From contig CALUHJ010000002.1 in assembly GCA_944320415.1 (NCBI GenBank), positions 62,001 to 126,000 of the forward strand: a DNA stretch of 64,000 nucleotides, given 5' to 3'. This DNA is from an uncultured Bacteroidales bacterium. Lineage in GTDB: Bacteria; Bacteroidota; Bacteroidia; Bacteroidales; P3. Position numbers and translations under genes: made by a program. The notes beneath the pieces are model-generated. The model ran no database searches. It was not told the DNA's origin and saw only the letters and a program-made list of their open reading frames with translations. Numbering within the stretch: position 1 is the first letter of the stretch; each line of letters opens with the position of its first letter. Below are positions 1,401-58,030 of this stretch, in pieces.

Positions 1401-4400
1401 TTACTTCTCCATTTTTTTCTTATTGGAACGTGTTATCAACGCATAAACCACAGGACAAGCAACACACAAAGACGCAAAACCTCCCACAGCTACACCTACC
1501 AATAAAGCAAAGGCAAAACCTCTCAACACCTCTCCTCCAAAAATAAACACTATCAACAAAACCAACAATGTAGTACCCAAAGTATTGAATGTTCTACTCA
1601 AAGTCTGATTCATTGCGTCATTCATTTCCTTGCCATAAGGCGATTTAGGATAGAGTCTAACATTCTCACGGACTCGATCAAATACTATCACAGTATCGTT
1701 TATGGAATAACCTATCACAGTAAGAATAGCCGCTATGAAATGTTGGTCAACCTCGAGGTTAAACGGCAATATACCGCTGAACAATGAGAAAATACCTATG
1801 GTTATCAATGTGTCGAAACTCAAAGACAAAAGACCAGCCAAACCATATTGCCACTTCTTAAACCTCACTCCTATGTAAACAAATATCAAAACCAATGAAA
1901 TCAAAACGGCTATGACTGCAGACCTCTGTATATCATCAGCCATAGTAGGTCCTACAATCTCCGAACTGATTATTCCCAACGGACTCTTCATTGTCGATTT
2001 AAATTGGTCTACCGTTATGCTCTTGTCCTTATAGAAATCTTTGGTACCCTTGTGCAATTTAGCTATAACTTCTTCCTTTACGGCTTCGCTATCATCCTCA
2101 ACCTTATAGTCGGTAGTTACTTTCACCTGATAAGCAGGACCAAATGTTTTGACTTCCGGAGCTGTTCCAAACTCTTGCTGTAATGAATGACGAACCTCAA
2201 CAGGATTGACATCTTGATCAAATCTTATGACATATGTACGTCCTCCAGAGAAATCTATACCATAATCCAAACCCTTGAATGCCAAAGAAGCAACGGATAT
2301 TATCACCAAAACTGTCGTTATTACAGTCTGCAATTTATGCGTTCCAACAAAATTAACTTTAGGGTTTTCCAAGAAATGCTTTGTAAGTTTTGTGTAAAAA
2401 GTAATATTTTTATGAGCATTCTTCCTACTCAACATTGCCTCAAATACCAATCTTGAAATAAAAATACTTGAGAACAACGACGTCAATATACCTATACACA
2501 ATGTTATGGCAAATCCTTGTATAGGACCACTTCCAAAATACGCCAGAACTATACCTGTCAACAATGTAGTTACGTTACCATCTATAATAGCAGAATAGGC
2601 TACCTTGTAACCGTCTGCTATTGCAGAACCCAAATTCTTTCCTGCCAGAAGTTCCTCCTTGATTCTTTCGTATATGATTACGTTTGCATCCACTGCCATA
2701 GCCATTGTAAGAACTATACCAGCTATACCAGGCAATGTAAGAACTGCACCTATCGAAGCAAGTATACCCAACAAGAAGAATATATTGACAAACAATGCCG
2801 AACAAGCCGCTATTCCCGCCATATTGTAGAAGAATATCATATAGGCGAAAACCAATATAAATGCAACTATAAATGATATAATACCTGTTCTTATTGATTC
2901 TGCTCCGAGAGAAGGCCCAACAACTGACTCTTGAACCATTTTTGCAGGAGCTGTCAATTTTCCCGATTTCAATATATTGGCCAAATCTTTGGCCTCATCA
3001 ACAGTAAAATTACCGCTTATCTCTGAACGACCTCCAGTTATCTCGCTTCCTACATTAGGAGCAGAATACACCAAATTATCCAGAACTATAGCTATACTGT
3101 TGCCTATGTTACTGCCTGTTATCTTTGCCCATTTATGCGCGGCCGCATCTTTCATGACCATATTGACAACAGGACGTCCATGCTGATCAAAATCACTTCC
3201 AGCGTCAGATATCACATCTCCATCCAACAAAGGAGTCTTTGCCTTATTTGTATATTGCAAAACATACAATTCATATTCATTCGTTTTATCTATCGGCTTT
3301 GCACCCCATAAAAAAGTAACATCCTGAGGCAACATCTTAGATGCTTTAGCCAACAGACGATCTATCTCATCCTTGTTGGCAGCCGTTGCCGTTCCTACAA
3401 CACATCTTTGCAAGTTACCATTGTTCAATCTGACAAATTTGGAAAACAAAGGATGCTCTTCCTTCTTTTTATTGTTTGCCGCTCCATTTACACTTTGTAA
3501 TATTGTAGAATCATTATTCTTTTGCAAAACAGTATCTATTTCCACAGAATCTGTTACAGACAAATCATCATCACCTACACTTGACAACCATTCATCTGCG
3601 GAAACCAAAGACTGAAATACATTTGCCGCATCACCCGCCAACCAAAACTGAAGTTGGGCAGTACCTTCGAGCAATTTACTCACCCTTTGAGGATCCTTTA
3701 CGCCGGGAAGCTCTATGGCAATTCTTTCTGTAGCTTCCAGTTTCTGAATTGTCGGCTGAGCAACACCAAATTTGTCTATACGTTTTGACAATACTTGGAA
3801 CGTTCTGTCATAAGCCTCCGTACACTCCTTGCGTATGGCAGCTATGACACTCGCATTCGAAGAATTAGCCGTTATTCCTTTTTCTTTCAACTTAACCCTG
3901 AAAAATGCAGAAAGATCTATCTTGGAAGACTCGTTCATTTCATTTACTTTTCTTTCGAAGCAATCAATGAATTTATCTCCCGTAGCTTTATGTTCGTTTT
4001 CTGCTTCCTGTATCAATTTCACCAGCGTGGGATCTTCAGGATTCGTTGCCAGATTCTTCAAGACATCCACAGTGGACACCTCCATCATGACATTCATACC
4101 ACCTTTCAAATCCAATCCCAAATTAACTTCTCTGGCCTTACACTCCTTGTAAGAAAACTTCCTTATCCAAAGGAAATTATAGACTGTTTTTTCAGAAACC
4201 GAATCCAAATAGAAATTTTCTCTCGCACTTGAAATGGAATCAAAGATTTCCTGCTCTCTCAAAGCATCTCCCTTCGCCAAGGTCTTAGCAAGATTAACCG
4301 CATATTGATTTGTTGCATACTCTTTGGCATTGTTCTCCACCCTCTTGGTAAAGTAAGTAAAAGACAACTGATACAAACAAATCAGTGCAAACACCACCGC

Positions 4401-13476: not shown

Positions 13477-13523
13477 CGAAAAAGCGTTTTACCGAAACTT
13501 CATTTTAGTTTTTTGGATCTTTG

Positions 13524-13586
13524 TTTCATTTTTTTCTTTCTTGATTTCATTTTCCCGGAATCAAGAAAGAAAAAAAGCTATCCTGA
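13524..13586. repeat. 21-nt-period intergenic repeat, site 1
   Basis: Two units beginning TTTCATTTT start at 13524 and 13545, exactly 21 nt apart. The second ends in CCCGGAATCAAG, shared with the repeat sites at 49340 and 57968. An imperfect palindrome with 11-bp arms, CTTTCTTGATT and AATCAAGAAAG, spans 13536-13569. It lies between the divergent hydrolase and rnfA genes, upstream of the rnfA -7 box. Confidence 0.5.
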
Positions 13587-13632
13587 AGACAAAAAACCTG
13601 AGGGAAAAGCACGGAATTCGAATAAAAAACAT

Positions 13633-18789: not shown

Positions 18790-18873
18790 GCATCTGTGGC
18801 GGAACTGGTAGACGCGCTAGACTCAAAATCTAGTGGGGTAAAACCTGTGCCGGTTCGATTCCGGCCAGATGTA
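18790..18873 (+). tRNA. tRNA-Leu (anticodon CAA)
   Basis: An 84-nt class II tRNA. Acceptor arms GCATCTG (18790-18796) and CAGATGT (18866-18872) pair with one G-T at the end, followed by discriminator A. The D-loop has the GGTAGACGC leucine/serine pattern. Anticodon stem CTAGA/TCTAG closes the loop CTCAAAA, giving anticodon CAA. A long variable arm is present, and the T-arm is CCGGTTCGATTCCGG. CCA is not encoded. Confidence 0.97.
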
Positions 18874-27402: not shown

Positions 27403-27413
27403 TATAATAACGG

Positions 27414-27476
27414 TTTCTGAAAAGAAAAAAACCTTTTCTGAAAAGGAAAAAACGGATTCAGAATCCGATTTCCCAC
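27414..27476. repeat. 21-nt-period intergenic repeat, site 2
   Basis: Three consecutive 21-nt units start at 27414, 27435 and 27456. The first two begin TTTCTGAAAAG and differ by few bases; the third begins ATTCAGAATCC. A perfect palindrome CGGATTCAGAATCCG lies at 27453-27467. Unit 1 shares the 14 bases TTCTGAAAAGAAAA with site 3 (49376). Located between the convergent maf and nifJ genes. Confidence 0.6.
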
Positions 27477-31962: not shown

Positions 31963-32054
31963 AACACTTTTTCTATTTATAACGAATTAATCCAACAATT
32001 ATTTTGCATGAAAATCCGTTTAGTCCAAAGAAGGCTTAAATGGATTTTGATTTG

Positions 32055-32112
32055 ACAAAATCATAATCAAGGAAAAAAAACGGATTCAGAAAAGAGAAAA
32101 TCGAAACGGCGT
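32055..32112. repeat. Related intergenic repeat sequence, site B
   Basis: Contains AATCAAGG (from 32065) and ATTCAGAAAAGAG (from 32084), cores shared with sites 2 and 3, but the spacing is 19 nt, not 21. It sits between the divergent sodB and kor genes, upstream of the kor promoter. Confidence 0.4.
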
Positions 32113-34361: not shown

Positions 34362-34913
34362 ATGACAGAAGAAATAATCATAGCGGGCTTTGGAGGACAG
34401 GGCGTTTTGTCAATGGGCAAGATATTGGCCTATTCCGGAGCGATGCAAGACAAGGAGGTAAGCTGGATGCCGTCTTACGGACCTGAAATGCGTGGTGGTA
34501 CTGCGAATGTGTCTGTTATCATCTCGGATGAGAGAATATCCTCTCCTATCATCAGCCAGTTCGACACGGCAATAATACTTAACCAGCAATCATTGGACAA
34601 GTTTGAACATTCGGTTAAGCCGGGCGGTGTTCTATTGTACGACCCTAACGGAATAATACACCCTCCTACAAGGACGGACATAAACATCTACAAGGTTGCG
34701 GCAACAGAAAAGAGTGCGGAACTTGGAATGTCCAAAGTATTCAACATGATTGTATTGGGAGCGTTCTTGAAGGTAAAACCGGTAGTAACCGAGGAGTTCA
34801 TAGAAAAGGGACTTCAAAAGTCTTTGCCTGAAAGACATCACAAGTTGATACCTGCCAACCTTGAAGCGGTTCAAACAGGTAAGAGTCTGGTTGAAACTGT
34901 TCACAAGTTGTAA
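34362..34913 (+). CDS. korC: 2-oxoacid:ferredoxin oxidoreductase, gamma subunit
   Basis: A 183-residue subunit corresponding to PFOR domain III, thought to help CoA binding and complex assembly. Start MTEEIIIAGFGGQGVLSMGK is the family signature; SWMPSYGPEMRGGTANVSVI and FDTAIILNQQSLDKFEHSVK follow. Last gene of korDABC and directly followed by a terminator. Confidence 0.93.
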   Translation: MTEEIIIAGFGGQGVLSMGKILAYSGAMQDKEVSWMPSYGPEMRGGTANVSVIISDERISSPIISQFDTAIILNQQSLDKFEHSVKPGGVLLYDPNGIIHPPTRTDINIYKVAATEKSAELGMSKVFNMIVLGAFLKVKPVVTEEFIEKGLQKSLPERHHKLIPANLEAVQTGKSLVETVHKL

Positions 34914-34940
34914 GATATAAACTTCAACAAACGATAAGAA

Positions 34941-34975
34941 AAGCATAAGTTCAAATTGGACTTATGCTTTTTTTG
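34941..34975 (+). terminator. Terminator of the kor operon
   Basis: A 10-bp stem AAGCATAAGT/ACTTATGCTT (34941-34950, 34960-34969) with a 9-nt loop, then a run of Ts. Confidence 0.88.
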
Positions 34976-35048
34976 TGTCCTGCCCGGCGATGAAAAAAAG
35001 CCTGAGACAATCTCCGTAAACCGGCCGCTGAAATATCTGAAAAAGGTT

Positions 35049-35056
35049 TACCTTTG
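35049..35056 (+). promoter_or_regulatory. Probable -7 box of the helicase gene
   Basis: TACCTTTG 37 nt upstream of the helicase start; the -33 position reads GCTG. Confidence 0.4.
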
Positions 35057-35093
35057 CACTACGTTATGACAGAATTGATGTAAACGTTCCATT

Positions 35094-37415
35094 ATGAATC
35101 CTCGTCAATATATGATTGTAGACCTGGAAAGACAGGACAAAAGAAGGATGTTTGTCACCGAACAGGTCTCCTTTATCAACAAAAACACAAACGGCCTTCT
35201 GAGCGTACGCTTTTCGTCATCGCCCCGCGTGTTCAACTACAACCCGTCCCGACTGCTTTGTCTGAAAAATCCCGAGACAATTGATCTTGGGCAGAAAGGA
35301 CTGTACATTGACAACAGACGCATTCATAATGTGGCCGAACTGCTGCGGTTTACGGATGGACATTACACATTCTATCATGTCACCTATGCCGACGGGCAAC
35401 ATGAGAATCTTGAGGGAAAAAATGTCTACATCACCCGCACACCGATTGACATAAACGGCGGCTCTACATGGGAATATCTCTGCAAGCTGGCTGCCGAAAC
35501 GGGACTGCTGAGCGAGCAGGACGAGAACATCCTGTCCAAACAGTATGAAATGGTGGATTTGAAGCGTGACAATGTTCCCCTGGCCCAATATCTGGGTGAG
35601 AAGACGAAGCTCGCCACTTGTCTTATGCCACGCCAAGTGTATTATCCTTTCGGATGCAATTCGAGTCAGAAAACGGCCGTTGAAGCCGCCCTGACTCATC
35701 AAGTAAGTATTATTCAGGGGCCTCCCGGAACCGGCAAAACGCAGACGATTCTGAACATCGTCGCCAATCTGCTCATGAATGGCAAAACAGTACTGGTGGT
35801 ATCAAACAACAATTCTGCCGTGGACAATGTGGCAGAGAAACTTTCAGGCGAAGGACTTGATTTCATTGTTGCCAAGTTGGGCAGTGTGGAGAATAAGAAA
35901 GCGTTCATTGACAGTCAGAAGGAATGTCCCGAGATGTCCGCTTGGGTTCTCGAGCATGAGTCCTGCGTGAGAAAGCTGGCAAAAGATGCACTTCAATGCG
36001 TCTCTAAGGGATTTGATGTGCAGTTGCGGCAGGCCCGACTGAAAGCCGAACTTGATGCGCTATTGATTGAATCTAAATATAACCAGTTTCTGGAATCCAG
36101 ACATAGGGAAGACAAACGTTTGAAGGGTAAACCGTCTGCCAGGCTCATGAAATTACTGTACGCCTACAAGATTATGTCAGAGAACGGACATAAGCCGGGC
36201 TTACTCTTCAGATTGAGATGGGCTTTTGCGTTAGGCATAAAGATGCTGAGCTTTTTGAGCAAGGAGACCTCTAATGTCATATCCGAATTGGAATACGCTT
36301 ATTACTGCTCCAAGAAGGATGAAATGGAAAAGGAACTGAAAGCGATAGAATCGGAATTGCAAGAAGCAGATATATCCAAAAGCGTTGAAACTCTGCGTTC
36401 CTCTTCATTGATGATATTGAAGAACCATATGGCCCGGCGATATGGCAAAGGTACGAGAAAGAAGTTTGATATCTATGATATAAAGTACCGGACGCAAGCC
36501 TTCCTGAAGGAATATCCGCTTGTGCTCAGCACTACCTACTGCGCTAAAAGCTGTATCAGCGAGGATATGGTGTTTGACTATGCCATCATGGACGAGGCTT
36601 CACAGGTGGACATAAAAACAGGCGCCCTGGCTCTTTCCTGCGCGATGAATGCGGTAATTGTCGGCGACGACAAACAGTTGGCTAATGTGATAAGCCGTGA
36701 AGAGGCTCTTGCACTGAATGCAATACGAACAAGCTGTCAGGTGGATGAGCGATATGATGCCGCAAGTCACAGTTTCCTGCAATCGTGTTTGGAAGTCTTC
36801 AGGGATGCACCGGTGACATTGCTTCGGGAGCATTACCGTTGCCATCCCAAAATCATCGAATTCTGCAACCGACGTTTCTACAACGGCGAACTTATTGCCA
36901 TGACCAAAGACAAACACGAAGATAAGGTATTGCAGCTTATTCAGACGATGCCCGGCAATCACGCACGAGAACATTTCAACCAGAGGGAAATAGATGTAAT
37001 AGTCCGGGAGGTACTTCCGCAATGCTCCGAAACGGAAACTATAGGCATTATCACGCCATACCGTTTGCAGGCAGAGGCCATCAACCGGACTTTAGGCAAA
37101 AACATGGCCAGCACGGTGCATAAGTATCAGGGGCGTGAGTGCGATACTATCATTATGAGCATGGTAGATAACAGTCTCACAGAATTTTCGGATGATGCCA
37201 ATCTGCTCAATGTAGCCATTTCCCGTGCCAAGAAACATCTTTATGTGGTTGCAAACGGGAATGAAATGCCGGAGGATTCCAACCTCAGTCAGCTAATAAA
37301 TTATATACGGTTTAACAACTTCGAAGTAAAAAGAGTAAACTGCATTCGGTTTTCGATTTGTTATACAAACAATACACTGCTGAAAGACTGGCTTATCAGT
37401 CCAAACATCAGATGA
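35094..37415 (+). CDS. Superfamily 1 DNA/RNA helicase (Upf1/Dna2-like), frame-shifted near its end
   Basis: A 773-codon frame encoding an ATP-dependent helicase. An unassigned N-terminal region (about 1-190) is followed by Walker A GPPGTGKTQTILN, motif Ia VLVVSNNNSAVDNVAEKL, an insertion with helices (about 300-450), motif II DYAIMDEASQVD, motif III VGDDKQLANV, motif IV LREHYRCHPKIIEFCNRRFY, motif V VHKYQGRECDTIIM and motif VI NVAISRAKKHLYVVANG. The tail after EVKR (about residue 747) departs from the expected sequence: the natural continuation, a nuclease domain, lies in the -1 frame (37331-37807). The gene is more GC-rich than its neighbours (roughly 45-58% in lines counted), which suggests transfer. 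Such helicase-nuclease proteins are often DNA repair or defence factors; no defence partner is adjacent. Confidence 0.82.
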   Translation: MNPRQYMIVDLERQDKRRMFVTEQVSFINKNTNGLLSVRFSSSPRVFNYNPSRLLCLKNPETIDLGQKGLYIDNRRIHNVAELLRFTDGHYTFYHVTYADGQHENLEGKNVYITRTPIDINGGSTWEYLCKLAAETGLLSEQDENILSKQYEMVDLKRDNVPLAQYLGEKTKLATCLMPRQVYYPFGCNSSQKTAVEAALTHQVSIIQGPPGTGKTQTILNIVANLLMNGKTVLVVSNNNSAVDNVAEKLSGEGLDFIVAKLGSVENKKAFIDSQKECPEMSAWVLEHESCVRKLAKDALQCVSKGFDVQLRQARLKAELDALLIESKYNQFLESRHREDKRLKGKPSARLMKLLYAYKIMSENGHKPGLLFRLRWAFALGIKMLSFLSKETSNVISELEYAYYCSKKDEMEKELKAIESELQEADISKSVETLRSSSLMILKNHMARRYGKGTRKKFDIYDIKYRTQAFLKEYPLVLSTTYCAKSCISEDMVFDYAIMDEASQVDIKTGALALSCAMNAVIVGDDKQLANVISREEALALNAIRTSCQVDERYDAASHSFLQSCLEVFRDAPVTLLREHYRCHPKIIEFCNRRFYNGELIAMTKDKHEDKVLQLIQTMPGNHAREHFNQREIDVIVREVLPQCSETETIGIITPYRLQAEAINRTLGKNMASTVHKYQGRECDTIIMSMVDNSLTEFSDDANLLNVAISRAKKHLYVVANGNEMPEDSNLSQLINYIRFNNFEVKRVNCIRFSICYTNNTLLKDWLISPNIR

Positions 37416-37807
37416 TATCGGAGTACCTGTCCGAAAACCTGATTTATGATACCCTGCAAAAGGCAATCAATGATTCAGGATATACAAATACAGGCGTATT
37501 GTGTCATTATCCGCTATCACGACTTGTCGGCGACTGGACTCTGCTGGAGAACAATGAGAAATATTTTGCCAGAAGTCCTTTCTCTCATGTAGATTTTCTT
37601 ATCTATAACACTCTTACAAAACAGCCTAAATGTGCAATAGAAGTTGACGGTTGGCATTTTCACAAGGATAGCGACGCGCAGCAATCACGCGATACACTCA
37701 AGAACCGAATCCTGGAAAAATTGGGGCTTCATTTAATTCGTATTTCTACCACAGATATAGTGAATGAAGAAATGATGATGAATCAAATTTTTGACACAAA
37801 TAGCTGA
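37358..37807 (+). pseudogene. C-terminal PD-(D/E)XK-type nuclease domain of the helicase, out of frame
   Basis: A 149-codon frame starting at a TTG, with no sign of an independent start. It continues the helicase in the -1 frame: reading back to 37334 gives SKLHSVFDLLYKQYTAERLA, the usual link in this family. The domain looks like a DUF2726/DUF559-type Vsr-like nuclease: FARSPFSHVDFLIYNTLTKQ supplies the Asp, CAIEVDGWHFHKD the E-x-D and H, and NRILEKLGLHLIRISTTD the end. The break lies at the five-A run 37328-37332; one extra A, or a -1 ribosomal slip there, restores V-K-K-S-K-L. A true deletion, a homopolymer sequencing error or programmed slippage cannot be told apart here. Confidence 0.7.
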
Positions 37808-37913
37808 AAAGAAATATGATTTGATCAACAACAGACCAAACATTTGCAAGTTGAATGATTGATTAGGGAAAGAAGCATTCCCGGCAAAGTCAAGAAAACA
37901 CAATCACTGAAAT

Positions 37914-37946
37914 ATTAAAAAAGAGAGAAATCATCAGACTTCTCTC
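37914..37946 (-). terminator. Terminator of the type IX secretion operon
   Basis: Minus strand: 7-bp stem GAGAGAA/TTCTCTC (37940-37946, 37923-37929) followed by a T tract, 28 nt past the gldN stop. Confidence 0.7.
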
Positions 37947-37973
37947 CCTCTCAAAAACATGAAAACAAAATGT

Positions 37974-38843
37974 TTAATATTCCCACATATCTTCTTCCAT
38001 ATTGAACAAATAGTCCTCTATTCTTGCAGACTCTGCCAAAGCATCGGCTCCTGCTGCATATTCCTCTATTCTTCTGCCAAATACAGTCGTTTCTCTGATG
38101 ACATAACTTGAAAAGATTCTCTTTCTGAATACATCATCATAAGAAGGACGCATTCTGTCGTTTTTGAAGTTGTACACTTCACTATTTGCCAACAATTCTC
38201 TAACCTCTGGGTCATTATATCTTATCCAGCACAAAGGCATAGGCATAGGAGTAGAACCGTCACCCTTATCAAGATAATAAATCAAGGCGAATCCTATTAT
38301 TCTAACATCCTCAACCGTCCTGTTCTTGTCCAAGAACCAGTCTTCCTTTATTCTCAACTGTTTTATATCCTCGGGAGCCAAAGACAAATATATCGTGGTA
38401 TCTTTTTCCTGTTCCATACCGTCCTGATCGTAAACTATCAATGTCTCCTGTCTAGGAGGAATAAGACTTGCCTTCTGTTCCGCCCAATTTATTTCATTCT
38501 CAAACATGTCGTTGTCAAATGCTCTTATACGACCTTCCAACAATGCCTCATCCAATATCGTATAAAGATTCTTTCTGCCTTGATCCGGAGTAACAGGATA
38601 ATAAAATACCTGATTCATCTTTTCCCTGAAATCTATAACTCTCCAAACTCTGTGAGCCCAGATAACATCAGCTTCTCTTATATAAGGGTATTCAAAAGGT
38701 TTTTTACCGTTTTCATACATTTCCGATTCCTTGACATAGAAGCCGTCCAAAGAGCCTTCCTCGTCATCCTCCATAACCTGAGCATAAGACACAACGCTTA
38801 AACTCATATACAAAGCAAATGCTATAAAACCTATTTTTTTCAT
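37974..38843 (-). CDS. gldN: Type IX secretion protein PorN/GldN
   Basis: Periplasmic partner of the outer-membrane lipoprotein PorK/GldK; together they form the large ring of the type IX secretion system. A 289-residue exported protein: signal MKKIGFIAFALYMSLSVVSY then AQ, an acidic linker, and the family core with PFEYPYIREADVIWAHRVWR followed by VIDFREKMNQVFYYP, plus LRIKEDWFLDKNRTVEDVRI. Length and position (last gene after gldM) match the conserved gldKLMN order. Followed by the operon terminator. Confidence 0.95.
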   Translation of the reverse strand: MKKIGFIAFALYMSLSVVSYAQVMEDDEEGSLDGFYVKESEMYENGKKPFEYPYIREADVIWAHRVWRVIDFREKMNQVFYYPVTPDQGRKNLYTILDEALLEGRIRAFDNDMFENEINWAEQKASLIPPRQETLIVYDQDGMEQEKDTTIYLSLAPEDIKQLRIKEDWFLDKNRTVEDVRIIGFALIYYLDKGDGSTPMPMPLCWIRYNDPEVRELLANSEVYNFKNDRMRPSYDDVFRKRIFSSYVIRETTVFGRRIEEYAAGADALAESARIEDYLFNMEEDMWEY

Positions 38844-38858
38844 ATGACTTTGTTTTTT

Positions 38859-40448
38859 CTATTGTATGGTAAATATCATCTGAGAATTACTTACATTTTT
38901 CTCTCCATCAGGTCCTTTGGCTCTGATGTTTTCTATATATATCTTGTTACCTCTTCTCAACTTCTGAATCTTAGCCAACATTTCCGGAGTAAAACGGCTA
39001 CTGTTGGATTGAATAGGAGCTTCAGCATCTCCACCTGTATTGAATGACATTACAAACGATGTAACGGTGTAACGAACAGGAAAATCAAATCCCTCCATCG
39101 AAACTCTTAATCCTCCCTGAGCCAACAACGATTCCTTAGGTATTCTACCACCTTCGTAATTACCTACTTTCGCGGTAGGTTTAGGTATTGTTTTTACACG
39201 ATAATCCATAGAGCCCATATTCATCTTCTTGCCACCAACAACTGCAGCAACGCTTATAACTGATTTACCAGGTTTAGTTACGGTAGCAATGTATTCACCG
39301 TCCTTTACCTTTTTCAAGGTTCCATTAGTCATACTTGCCTCTATATCCTTGGAATTGGCACCAGGAACAGAAATAGATATAGGATTATCAACACCTATAT
39401 ACAAAACGTTCATCTGTGTTGCAGATATCGTTGCAGAAGGAGCTGCCACAAAATATTCCCCTTCAAATTCGTAAGGTACCTCACCTGATTCTTTTTTAAC
39501 AAACAATGTACCTTTGTATTTCTGAGGACCCAATGCATTAGCGCCGAACTTCAATTTCAACATGCCGGAATCTCCAACCATACTATTACCTCTAACCTCT
39601 CCTCTCAACTCACTTCTTGAGTCATAAGCAGCGACAATAACATCAGCTTCATACTGTCCACCCTGTATTATGTAATTAGATTTTGGAATAACCTTTGCGA
39701 CAACCGTATTGAATTTAAAGTCTTCGGCAGATACTGCAGAATACAAATGATTGATTATGTCTATTTCTGCATTTTGTATCTCTGACTTGAACTTGTTAAG
39801 CAATACCAAATCTGCTAATGTAATAGTCTGATAGAAATTATACATTTGCCAGTTAACTTCCTGTCCTGCCTTGTTCTTAAACGGTCCTTTCGTGTTTATC
39901 TGAATATTTTTCAACTGCTTGGACGCAGGACCTGAAACATAAGTCAACATATCTGCCTGATAAGCATCTATTTTCTTTTTCAATTCTATTGCCTTACCTG
40001 CAGAACCATCCTCTGATTGACCTATGAAAAATCGTGTTGGTGAAGAATATTCGTCTTTCTTTTGAACTGCATCAAAACCCAATGAGTCCAATAATCTTTT
40101 AGCTTCTTTGACTCCACCTGGAGTACCTTCAACTGCTACGAACAGTTCATACTTCATGTTATCTATATAGTCTACTATCTCTTTCGTCTTGATCCTAACC
40201 TCCTGTGCCTTTGCCCAATTCTCCCCAACTTTACCCGGATCCTGTTTATAAGCATTTTCAAAAACATTGTAGGTACTCTCAGCCTTACCTTTAAGCAATT
40301 TATTCGTTACCTCAATACTGTCGCCCACCGTGACAAACGCCTGCAAAATTTCCGCTGACACATTCAATGCCAACATCGCAGTGTACACCAAGTACATCAT
40401 GGAAATCATTCGTTGCCGCGGCGTTTCAGGACAATTTGTAGCACCCAT
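38859..40448 (-). CDS. gldM: Type IX secretion motor protein PorM/GldM
   Basis: Inner-membrane-anchored protein whose periplasmic part spans to the PorKN ring; with GldL it forms the proton-driven motor of type IX secretion. A 529-residue protein: cytoplasmic start GATNCPETPRQRM, one transmembrane helix MYLVYTAMLALNVSAEILQA with the conserved Glu used in proton coupling, then a long periplasmic region with helical (about 40-220) and Ig-like beta domains (AKVGNYEGGRIPKESLLAQG in the last). 42 nt after gldL and 15 nt before gldN. Confidence 0.96.
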   Translation of the reverse strand: MGATNCPETPRQRMISMMYLVYTAMLALNVSAEILQAFVTVGDSIEVTNKLLKGKAESTYNVFENAYKQDPGKVGENWAKAQEVRIKTKEIVDYIDNMKYELFVAVEGTPGGVKEAKRLLDSLGFDAVQKKDEYSSPTRFFIGQSEDGSAGKAIELKKKIDAYQADMLTYVSGPASKQLKNIQINTKGPFKNKAGQEVNWQMYNFYQTITLADLVLLNKFKSEIQNAEIDIINHLYSAVSAEDFKFNTVVAKVIPKSNYIIQGGQYEADVIVAAYDSRSELRGEVRGNSMVGDSGMLKLKFGANALGPQKYKGTLFVKKESGEVPYEFEGEYFVAAPSATISATQMNVLYIGVDNPISISVPGANSKDIEASMTNGTLKKVKDGEYIATVTKPGKSVISVAAVVGGKKMNMGSMDYRVKTIPKPTAKVGNYEGGRIPKESLLAQGGLRVSMEGFDFPVRYTVTSFVMSFNTGGDAEAPIQSNSSRFTPEMLAKIQKLRRGNKIYIENIRAKGPDGEKNVSNSQMIFTIQ

Positions 40449-40489
40449 AGTCTTTATATCTTTAAATCTTTTCCTATTTCTTTTACTTA

Positions 40490-41425
40490 TTATATTTTAG
40501 TCTGCATTGCCGTAAGCATATTGCCGTATATGTCATTCAACGCACCGACCTTCTTGGACAAAGCATTAACTTGCTCCTTATATTTCAATACATTTTCAGC
40601 TGTATCCGCAAAATTCACAACCAAAGTGTCTATTCTTTCCTGCACTGCCTTACTTGCCTCCAATTGCGAAGATGAATTTTGTATTTGCATTTCATATAAA
40701 GCATTGATTGACGAAAGGCTCGAAGCCATTTTTTTCAATTCATCCAAATACGATGCATCTCCAACTGAAAGCGTATTAGCTGTCTCCTTATAAATATTTG
40801 CTAAGGTAGAAACCGCAGAGGTAGCCTCCTGAACAGATGACAAATATTCTCCAGAAACCAATAAATCTTTATTTAGATTTGTAGCTGTTTTTTTGTAAGC
40901 AGAAGCCAATTCAACAACGGAATCAGAAGCTGTATTAATATTCTGCACAAACTTCTCTGAAGCCGCCGCTGCCCCAGCAACATTACCCAATTGAGATGTT
41001 GTATTGGACAAATTATGCAATCCTTTACCTAAACTTTCTATCAATTCAGGCCCTATTTTTGCATCTTCCAACATTTTGTCTAATGCTTGCGTAGAAGAAC
41101 TTCCTCCTACAAATATTTCCTTTACCTCTTTTCTATCTTTTTTTGATTTTTCTTTTACTTCCGAATGAGCATGTTCTCCATCCATACCAGCCAATTCCGG
41201 ATAAACCAGACTCCAATCATATGTCACATGTAATGGCTCAAAAGCGGAAACAAAAAATATCAACGCCTCTATACCCATACCAATAATAAGCATTATAGTA
41301 GCACCAGGCCAGTGATTTATCTTAAACAATGCACCAATAATAACCACAGATGCACCCAAACCATATAACTTCGCTGAAGTTTCCTTATAAGCTTTACTTC
41401 TTACTACATTATCTATAAAACCCAT
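40490..41425 (-). CDS. gldL: Type IX secretion motor protein PorL/GldL
   Basis: Cytoplasmic-membrane motor subunit that forms a pentameric channel around GldM. A 311-residue protein: two N-terminal transmembrane helices with the family motif KLYGLGASVVIIGALFKINH then WPGATIMLIIGMGIEALIFF (conserved Lys-Glu pair), FEPLHVTYDWSLVYPEL, and a long cytoplasmic tail rich in Ala, Ser and Glu predicted to be coiled-coil (about 110-311). Confidence 0.95.
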   Translation of the reverse strand: MGFIDNVVRSKAYKETSAKLYGLGASVVIIGALFKINHWPGATIMLIIGMGIEALIFFVSAFEPLHVTYDWSLVYPELAGMDGEHAHSEVKEKSKKDRKEVKEIFVGGSSSTQALDKMLEDAKIGPELIESLGKGLHNLSNTTSQLGNVAGAAAASEKFVQNINTASDSVVELASAYKKTATNLNKDLLVSGEYLSSVQEATSAVSTLANIYKETANTLSVGDASYLDELKKMASSLSSINALYEMQIQNSSSQLEASKAVQERIDTLVVNFADTAENVLKYKEQVNALSKKVGALNDIYGNMLTAMQTKI

Positions 41426-48606: not shown

Positions 48607-49326
48607 ATGAACAGAAAACTCCTTTCAAAAGACCGCATCCATCATCTGCTTCTTGCAAAAGACGAATATTCTCTGCACTCCCCCCTAATGTTCGACTTTT
48701 TCACGAAAGGATTGAAACCGGGGCTCGACAAAACAAACTACAGGTGCATAATGAATTTTGAAAAGGAAATAACAAAAAAATATAATGACGGAAAAATATC
48801 GTGTTCACGTTCAAACAACATGTTCTTATGCAAACTCGTCAGATATTTCGCCCCGGAAAACATACTGGAAGTAGGAACGGAGTTCGGCATAAGCACACAA
48901 TACATGGCAAGGACAAACCATAATGCCACCGTATTCAGCATTGGAAACAGCGAAGAGAAAACATCCGTCGCCGACAAAGGATTCAGGGAAAACGGAATAA
49001 ACAACGTGAAACTGTTTTCGGGCCTTTATGACCAACTGTTGCCAGAATGCCTTGAAAAAATGAGGCGTGTGGACTTTGCCTGCATAAACAAGGCCGATAA
49101 TGACGACAAAATAATGCGCTATATCGAACTCATATTGCCTTATTGCAGTAAAGAATGTCCGATAGTCATAAAGGGAATATACGAAAACGAGGAAATGAAA
49201 AAGACATGGCAAGAAATATGCGAGGACAAAAGGTTCATGATTTGTGCGGACTTTTTTTCCTTCGGACTTATTCTTTTGAGTGACAAGCCTTTGCAAAAGC
49301 AGAACTACCGACTTAAGATGCGGTGA
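48607..49326 (+). CDS. Class I SAM-dependent methyltransferase-like protein
   Basis: A 239-residue protein with a methyltransferase-like Rossmann core: motif I NILEVGTEFGISTQYMART (the E-x-G-x-x-x-G form seen in catechol O-methyltransferase-like enzymes), motif II around HNATVFSIGNSEEK, motif IV KMRRVDFACINKADNDDKI, where the usual Asp-for-metal or Asp-x-Pro-Tyr is absent. N-terminal helices (about 1-75) are unassigned. No metal-binding set is clear, so activity is uncertain. The ATG at 48607 is chosen over 48556. Stands alone between the lptB unit and the lptC run. Confidence 0.65.
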   Translation: MNRKLLSKDRIHHLLLAKDEYSLHSPLMFDFFTKGLKPGLDKTNYRCIMNFEKEITKKYNDGKISCSRSNNMFLCKLVRYFAPENILEVGTEFGISTQYMARTNHNATVFSIGNSEEKTSVADKGFRENGINNVKLFSGLYDQLLPECLEKMRRVDFACINKADNDDKIMRYIELILPYCSKECPIVIKGIYENEEMKKTWQEICEDKRFMICADFFSFGLILLSDKPLQKQNYRLKMR

Positions 49327-49339
49327 AAACCAAACGAAG

Positions 49340-49416
49340 ATTCAGAAAAATGAATTCAGAAAAGAAAAAAATGTCTTCTGAAAAGAAAATCACGGAATCA
49401 AGATTCGATAAACCGC
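49340..49416. repeat. 21-nt-period intergenic repeat, site 3
   Basis: Related units start at 49340, 49354, 49375 and 49396, that is 14, 21 and 21 nt apart. They begin ATTCAGAAAAA, ATTCAGAAAAGAAAA, CTTCTGAAAAGAAAA and AATCAAGATTCG. Located between convergent genes (methyltransferase-like and lptC). It combines the TTCWGAAAAG core (site 2) with the CGGAATCAAG core (sites 1 and 4). Confidence 0.6.
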
Positions 49417-57946: not shown

Positions 57947-58030
57947 TTTCTTGATTCCGTCGCGACAGAATCAAGTTCCATTTTCACGGAATCAAATTCT
58001 ATTTTTTTCAAATCAAATTCCATTACAACC
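57947..58030. repeat. 21-nt-period intergenic repeat, site 4
   Basis: Units start at 57968 (GAATCAAGTTCC), 57989 (GAATCAAATTC) and 58010 (AAATCAAATTCC), exactly 21 nt apart. At the left end a near-palindrome with 8-bp arms CTTGATTC/GAATCAAG (57950-57975) encloses TCGCGA. Located between the divergent purL and GSCFA genes. Confidence 0.6.

Follow-up and report, generated by a model that had tools for sequence, protein, structure and literature searches.

The window, a 64,000-nucleotide stretch of a single contig, belongs to a gut bacterium with a 2.0-Mb genome (G000), which shares its genus with G001 (“Candidatus Onthomorpha intestinigallinarum,” Bacteroidales). It contains a helicase gene and a nuclease reading frame that overlap in different phases, with the following features.

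35094 to 37415, + strand: helicase frame, UPF1/IGHMBP2-like superfamily 1, 773 residues including an out-of-family tail of about 27 residues past the break (open reading frame list, Pfam, 96% protein identity to G001 over residues 1 to 750)
36681 to 36683, + strand: helicase codon 530, a window-derived Pro-to-Ala change in helicase motif III (GDDKQLPN in G001)
37328 to 37332, + strand: run of five As, the site where one base has been deleted compared with the six As of the intact relative (sequence reading, G001 comparison)
37332 to 37415, + strand: out-of-frame tail of the helicase, ending with TGA at 37413 to 37415 (sequence reading)
37358 to 37807, + strand: nuclease frame, DUF2726, with an E-x-D motif in IEVDGWHFH, −1 relative to the helicase (open reading frame list, Pfam)
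37412 to 37415, + strand: ATGA, the nuclease-frame ATG overlapping the helicase stop, a candidate restart for a 131-residue nuclease (sequence, with a chance level from simulated deletions)

The helicase codons across the break are GTA (37326 to 37328), AAA (37329 to 37331), and AGA (37332 to 37334). The −1 frame is open from 37316 to 37804, i.e., for 163 codons, and its stop codon follows directly. Pfam searches find AAA_11/AAA_12 in the helicase frame and DUF2726 in the segment 37358 to 37804 (E value, 8.4e-17). The run and its reading frame lie exactly where the earlier note had placed them, and its descriptions of an out-of-family helicase tail and of a complete PD-(D/E)XK-like nuclease domain in the −1 frame agree with these results. 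Both domains score above the Pfam cut-offs, and the window copy is homologous over its full length to intact helicase-DUF2726 proteins, but its domains are divided between two frames; the G001 copy has AAA_11/AAA_12 followed by DUF2726 in one polypeptide.

The G001 locus is 97.7% identical to that in the window at the DNA level over 5.25 kb and retains six As within one uninterrupted frame of 909 codons. One extra A does join the two frames, as the earlier note had claimed, and the comparison of run lengths that it proposed gives six As in this same-genus copy versus five in the window. Sixteen homologue loci were inspected: G001, G030, twelve from a 393-genome sample of the order, and two of the seven matching plasmid records. 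All 16 cross the helicase-to-nuclease junction in one frame; the ancestral gene was therefore a fusion, and the copy in the window, with its two separate frames, carries a one-base deletion relative to an intact congener. A single frame of at least 898 codons is found in 14 of the 16. The other two, from among the 15 loci besides G001, are also broken: the distant homologue in G333 has an independent frameshift inside the helicase (at about 3611 to 3671 of locus L157), and the one in G306 is a C-terminal fragment. An annotated AAA domain-containing protein from a Parabacteroides distasonis plasmid (WP_154395897.1; 906-codon frame; 67% identity to the intact G001 copy) aligns with the same length and architecture, an SF1 helicase with a C-terminal DUF2726, whereas the window copy is split. 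As a candidate frameshift pseudogene, the locus has an unbroken counterpart in a close relative and an indel that disrupts the gene.

The most likely explanation, to which we assign a probability of about 0.68, is that the helicase-nuclease gene lost one A in a recent ordinary gene-breaking mutation that cut off the nuclease. The parent was a patchily distributed single gene whose product joins an SF1 UPF1-like helicase to a DUF2726 nuclease of the PD-(D/E)XK type at its C terminus. A genuine replication slip probably removed one A from the six-A run at the domain junction in the recent past. Translation would now stop at 37415, leaving a helicase without its nuclease, so that the fused activity would be lost.

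The substitutions in the helicase speak for this explanation, as do the two other broken loci. Compared with G001, the helicase has 26 nonsynonymous and 23 synonymous differences among 744 codons; the two genes upstream have 0 and 16 among 248 codons and 0 and 2 among 183 codons, respectively. When polarized by a simple majority over ten homologues, without a tree, the 26 amino acid differences comprise 8 window-derived changes, 11 G001-derived changes, and 7 without a clear direction. One of the window-derived changes, P530A, replaces a proline that all ten homologues share. None of the 4 differences in the nuclease is window derived; hence the break, if real, is recent. A very recent break would leave such a pattern, but so would an error in the sequence or continued production of the nuclease.

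An isolated assembly or consensus error at this A, or a minority variant in an organism whose gene is intact, appears unlikely, although the difference is a single base in a homopolymer, the same-genus copy is intact, and the nuclease frame is free of window-derived amino acid changes. In 58,312 aligned bases of the window and G001, the five-A site is the sole indel inside a likely gene. The comparison yields 63 indels in total; 27 rows fall in stop-to-stop open reading frames, 21 of them not multiples of three, some being counted twice from overlapping alignments or frames. All of these except 37328 were set aside as lying upstream of a likely start codon or in a frame without an ATG (1026 to 1385); 8 frames were checked in this way, and for 17050 and 51437, as well as for the gene of 38862 to 40496 (ATG at 40448), the start was assessed by eye from the translation. 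Coding homopolymers of at least 5 bases were counted in hand-listed coding stretches (44,939 bases in all, shortened at the edges wherever the start was uncertain). Of 215 such runs, 214 are equally long in G001, including all 56 runs of 6 to 9. A general homopolymer error is therefore unlikely, and an error-prone assembly was rejected. This agreement argues against an inaccurate assembly and not against a single error; the shortness of a five-A run and P530A, which hints at weakened constraint on the helicase itself, speak against the latter. The earlier note had offered one-base loss, programmed −1 frameshifting, and homopolymer error side by side. Loss relative to an intact parent is upheld by G001 and 15 further homologues, the homopolymer counts and the lack of other gene-internal indels make the error less likely, and frameshifting is not supported (see below).

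The split gene might also work as two polypeptides, with termination at the TGA (37413 to 37415) and a coupled restart at the ATG (37412 to 37414) releasing a free nuclease of 131 residues. The overlap is in the correct frame, the nuclease frame is undamaged, and the DUF2726 match, whose first residue is number 25 in the 37358 frame, six codons past the ATG, would be kept whole. Such an arrangement seems improbable, given that 324 of 2,652 simulated single-base deletions of the intact gene (12%) create the same overlap, which makes it weak evidence. In addition, this Met is found only in G001 among the aligned sequences, and there is no purine-rich stretch just upstream of the ATG. In Hachiman, the helicase and the nuclease are on separate chains. 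That the deletion created a translationally coupled helicase/nuclease pair in one step, so that gene fission leading to two-gene systems of this kind would be caught in progress, is more doubtful still.

A programmed −1 shift of the ribosome on the A run, which would yield both the helicase and the fused helicase-nuclease, is hardly credible and was rejected after tests of heptamer, fold, and conservation. A slip of tRNA-Lys from AAA at 37329 to 37331 back to AAA at 37328 to 37330 would restore the ancestral sequence, but the window site (GTA AAA AGA) contains no X_XXY_YYZ heptamer, and the tRNA that reads AGA would pair poorly with AAG after the slip, in line with the poor A-site re-pairing noted earlier. 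The 70 nucleotides downstream show no significant pseudoknot-free structure in the window (z = −1.10) or in G001 (z = −0.18). The intact G001 copy reads GTA AAA AAG AGT AAA (L002, 3733 to 3752), i.e., an A_AAA_AAG that is in phase and directly precedes a stop in the −1 frame (GAG TAA). No in-phase A_AAA_AAG is found in 17 coding stretches of the window (26,716 bases); the G001 heptamer is therefore not commonplace. This arrangement resembles that of Escherichia coli dnaX, from which it differs in being unconserved, absent from the window, and devoid of a significant downstream stem-loop. Among 15 aligned homologues, only G001 has the heptamer. Since the other 14 all lack it while encoding the fusion in a single frame, its presence in G001 is taken as chance, without family support.

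The gene sits between korC-like and gldN-like genes (34910 to 37974), where it marks a rearrangement junction. The korC, gldN, and Rnf names are assignments from the sequences. In two congeners, the two flanking genes lie on one contig at a distance of about 66 kb (G004) and 71 kb (G003) from each other, with Rnf-like genes after korC, so no simple empty site can be read. Elsewhere, the window contains A-rich interspersed repeats, probably intergenic, at 13481 to 13596, 27408 to 27471, 32054 to 32107, 49320 to 49415, and 57967 to 58028. These are built on the words TTCAGAAAAG / GAATCAAG and match many G001 contigs on both strands; the segment 13500 to 13600 is predicted to form a long hairpin (−31.1 kcal/mol). 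The only hit in an Rfam scan is a tRNA at 18790 to 18873.

Searches with the intact copy as the query place the helicase core nearest to MkoA (E value, 2.7e-59) and MkoC (E value, 6.7e-53) in PADLOC, and the nearest solved structures are those of DNA2, SMUBP-2, and UPF1. In Mokosh type I, MkoA has an adjacent kinase partner, MkoB; the neighbors here, named by reading their translations, are presumably 2-oxoacid:ferredoxin oxidoreductase genes and the gldN-like gene. The likeness to Mokosh MkoC and MkoA lies in a related SF1 helicase core, whereas the nuclease is DUF2726 and not PLD-like. A table in PMC10952713 assigns a PLD-like domain to Mokosh types I and II; searching the intact copy against Pfam at an E value of 0.01 finds no PLD domain, in contrast to Mokosh type II. 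DUF2726 itself is described in PMC3710099 as an REase-fold DNase found fused to an AbiJ N-terminal domain.

The family is found in 2 of 6 genomes of the genus and in 13 of 393 genomes of the order (E value, 1e-40), the window's own genome counted. Searches of the plasmid collection match 7 records, of which 2 were inspected, and one homologue there has genes for an N-6 DNA methylase and a TIR protein in its vicinity; the phage collection gives one half-length match (34% identity), and the G001 record is the sole match in the genome collection. The patchy occurrence, the methylase and TIR genes near the plasmid homologue, and the rearranged neighborhood are compatible with a mobile defense gene, and the helicase-nuclease is probably a defense protein against phages or plasmids.

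Were the ATGA restart functional, this locus would illustrate how a fused helicase-nuclease can naturally become two chains in a single step. The correct annotation of this copy is a frameshifted helicase-nuclease, neither two genes nor a recoding site. Beyond annotation, the significance is small: accessory, probably defensive genes are expected to turn over by single-base slips.
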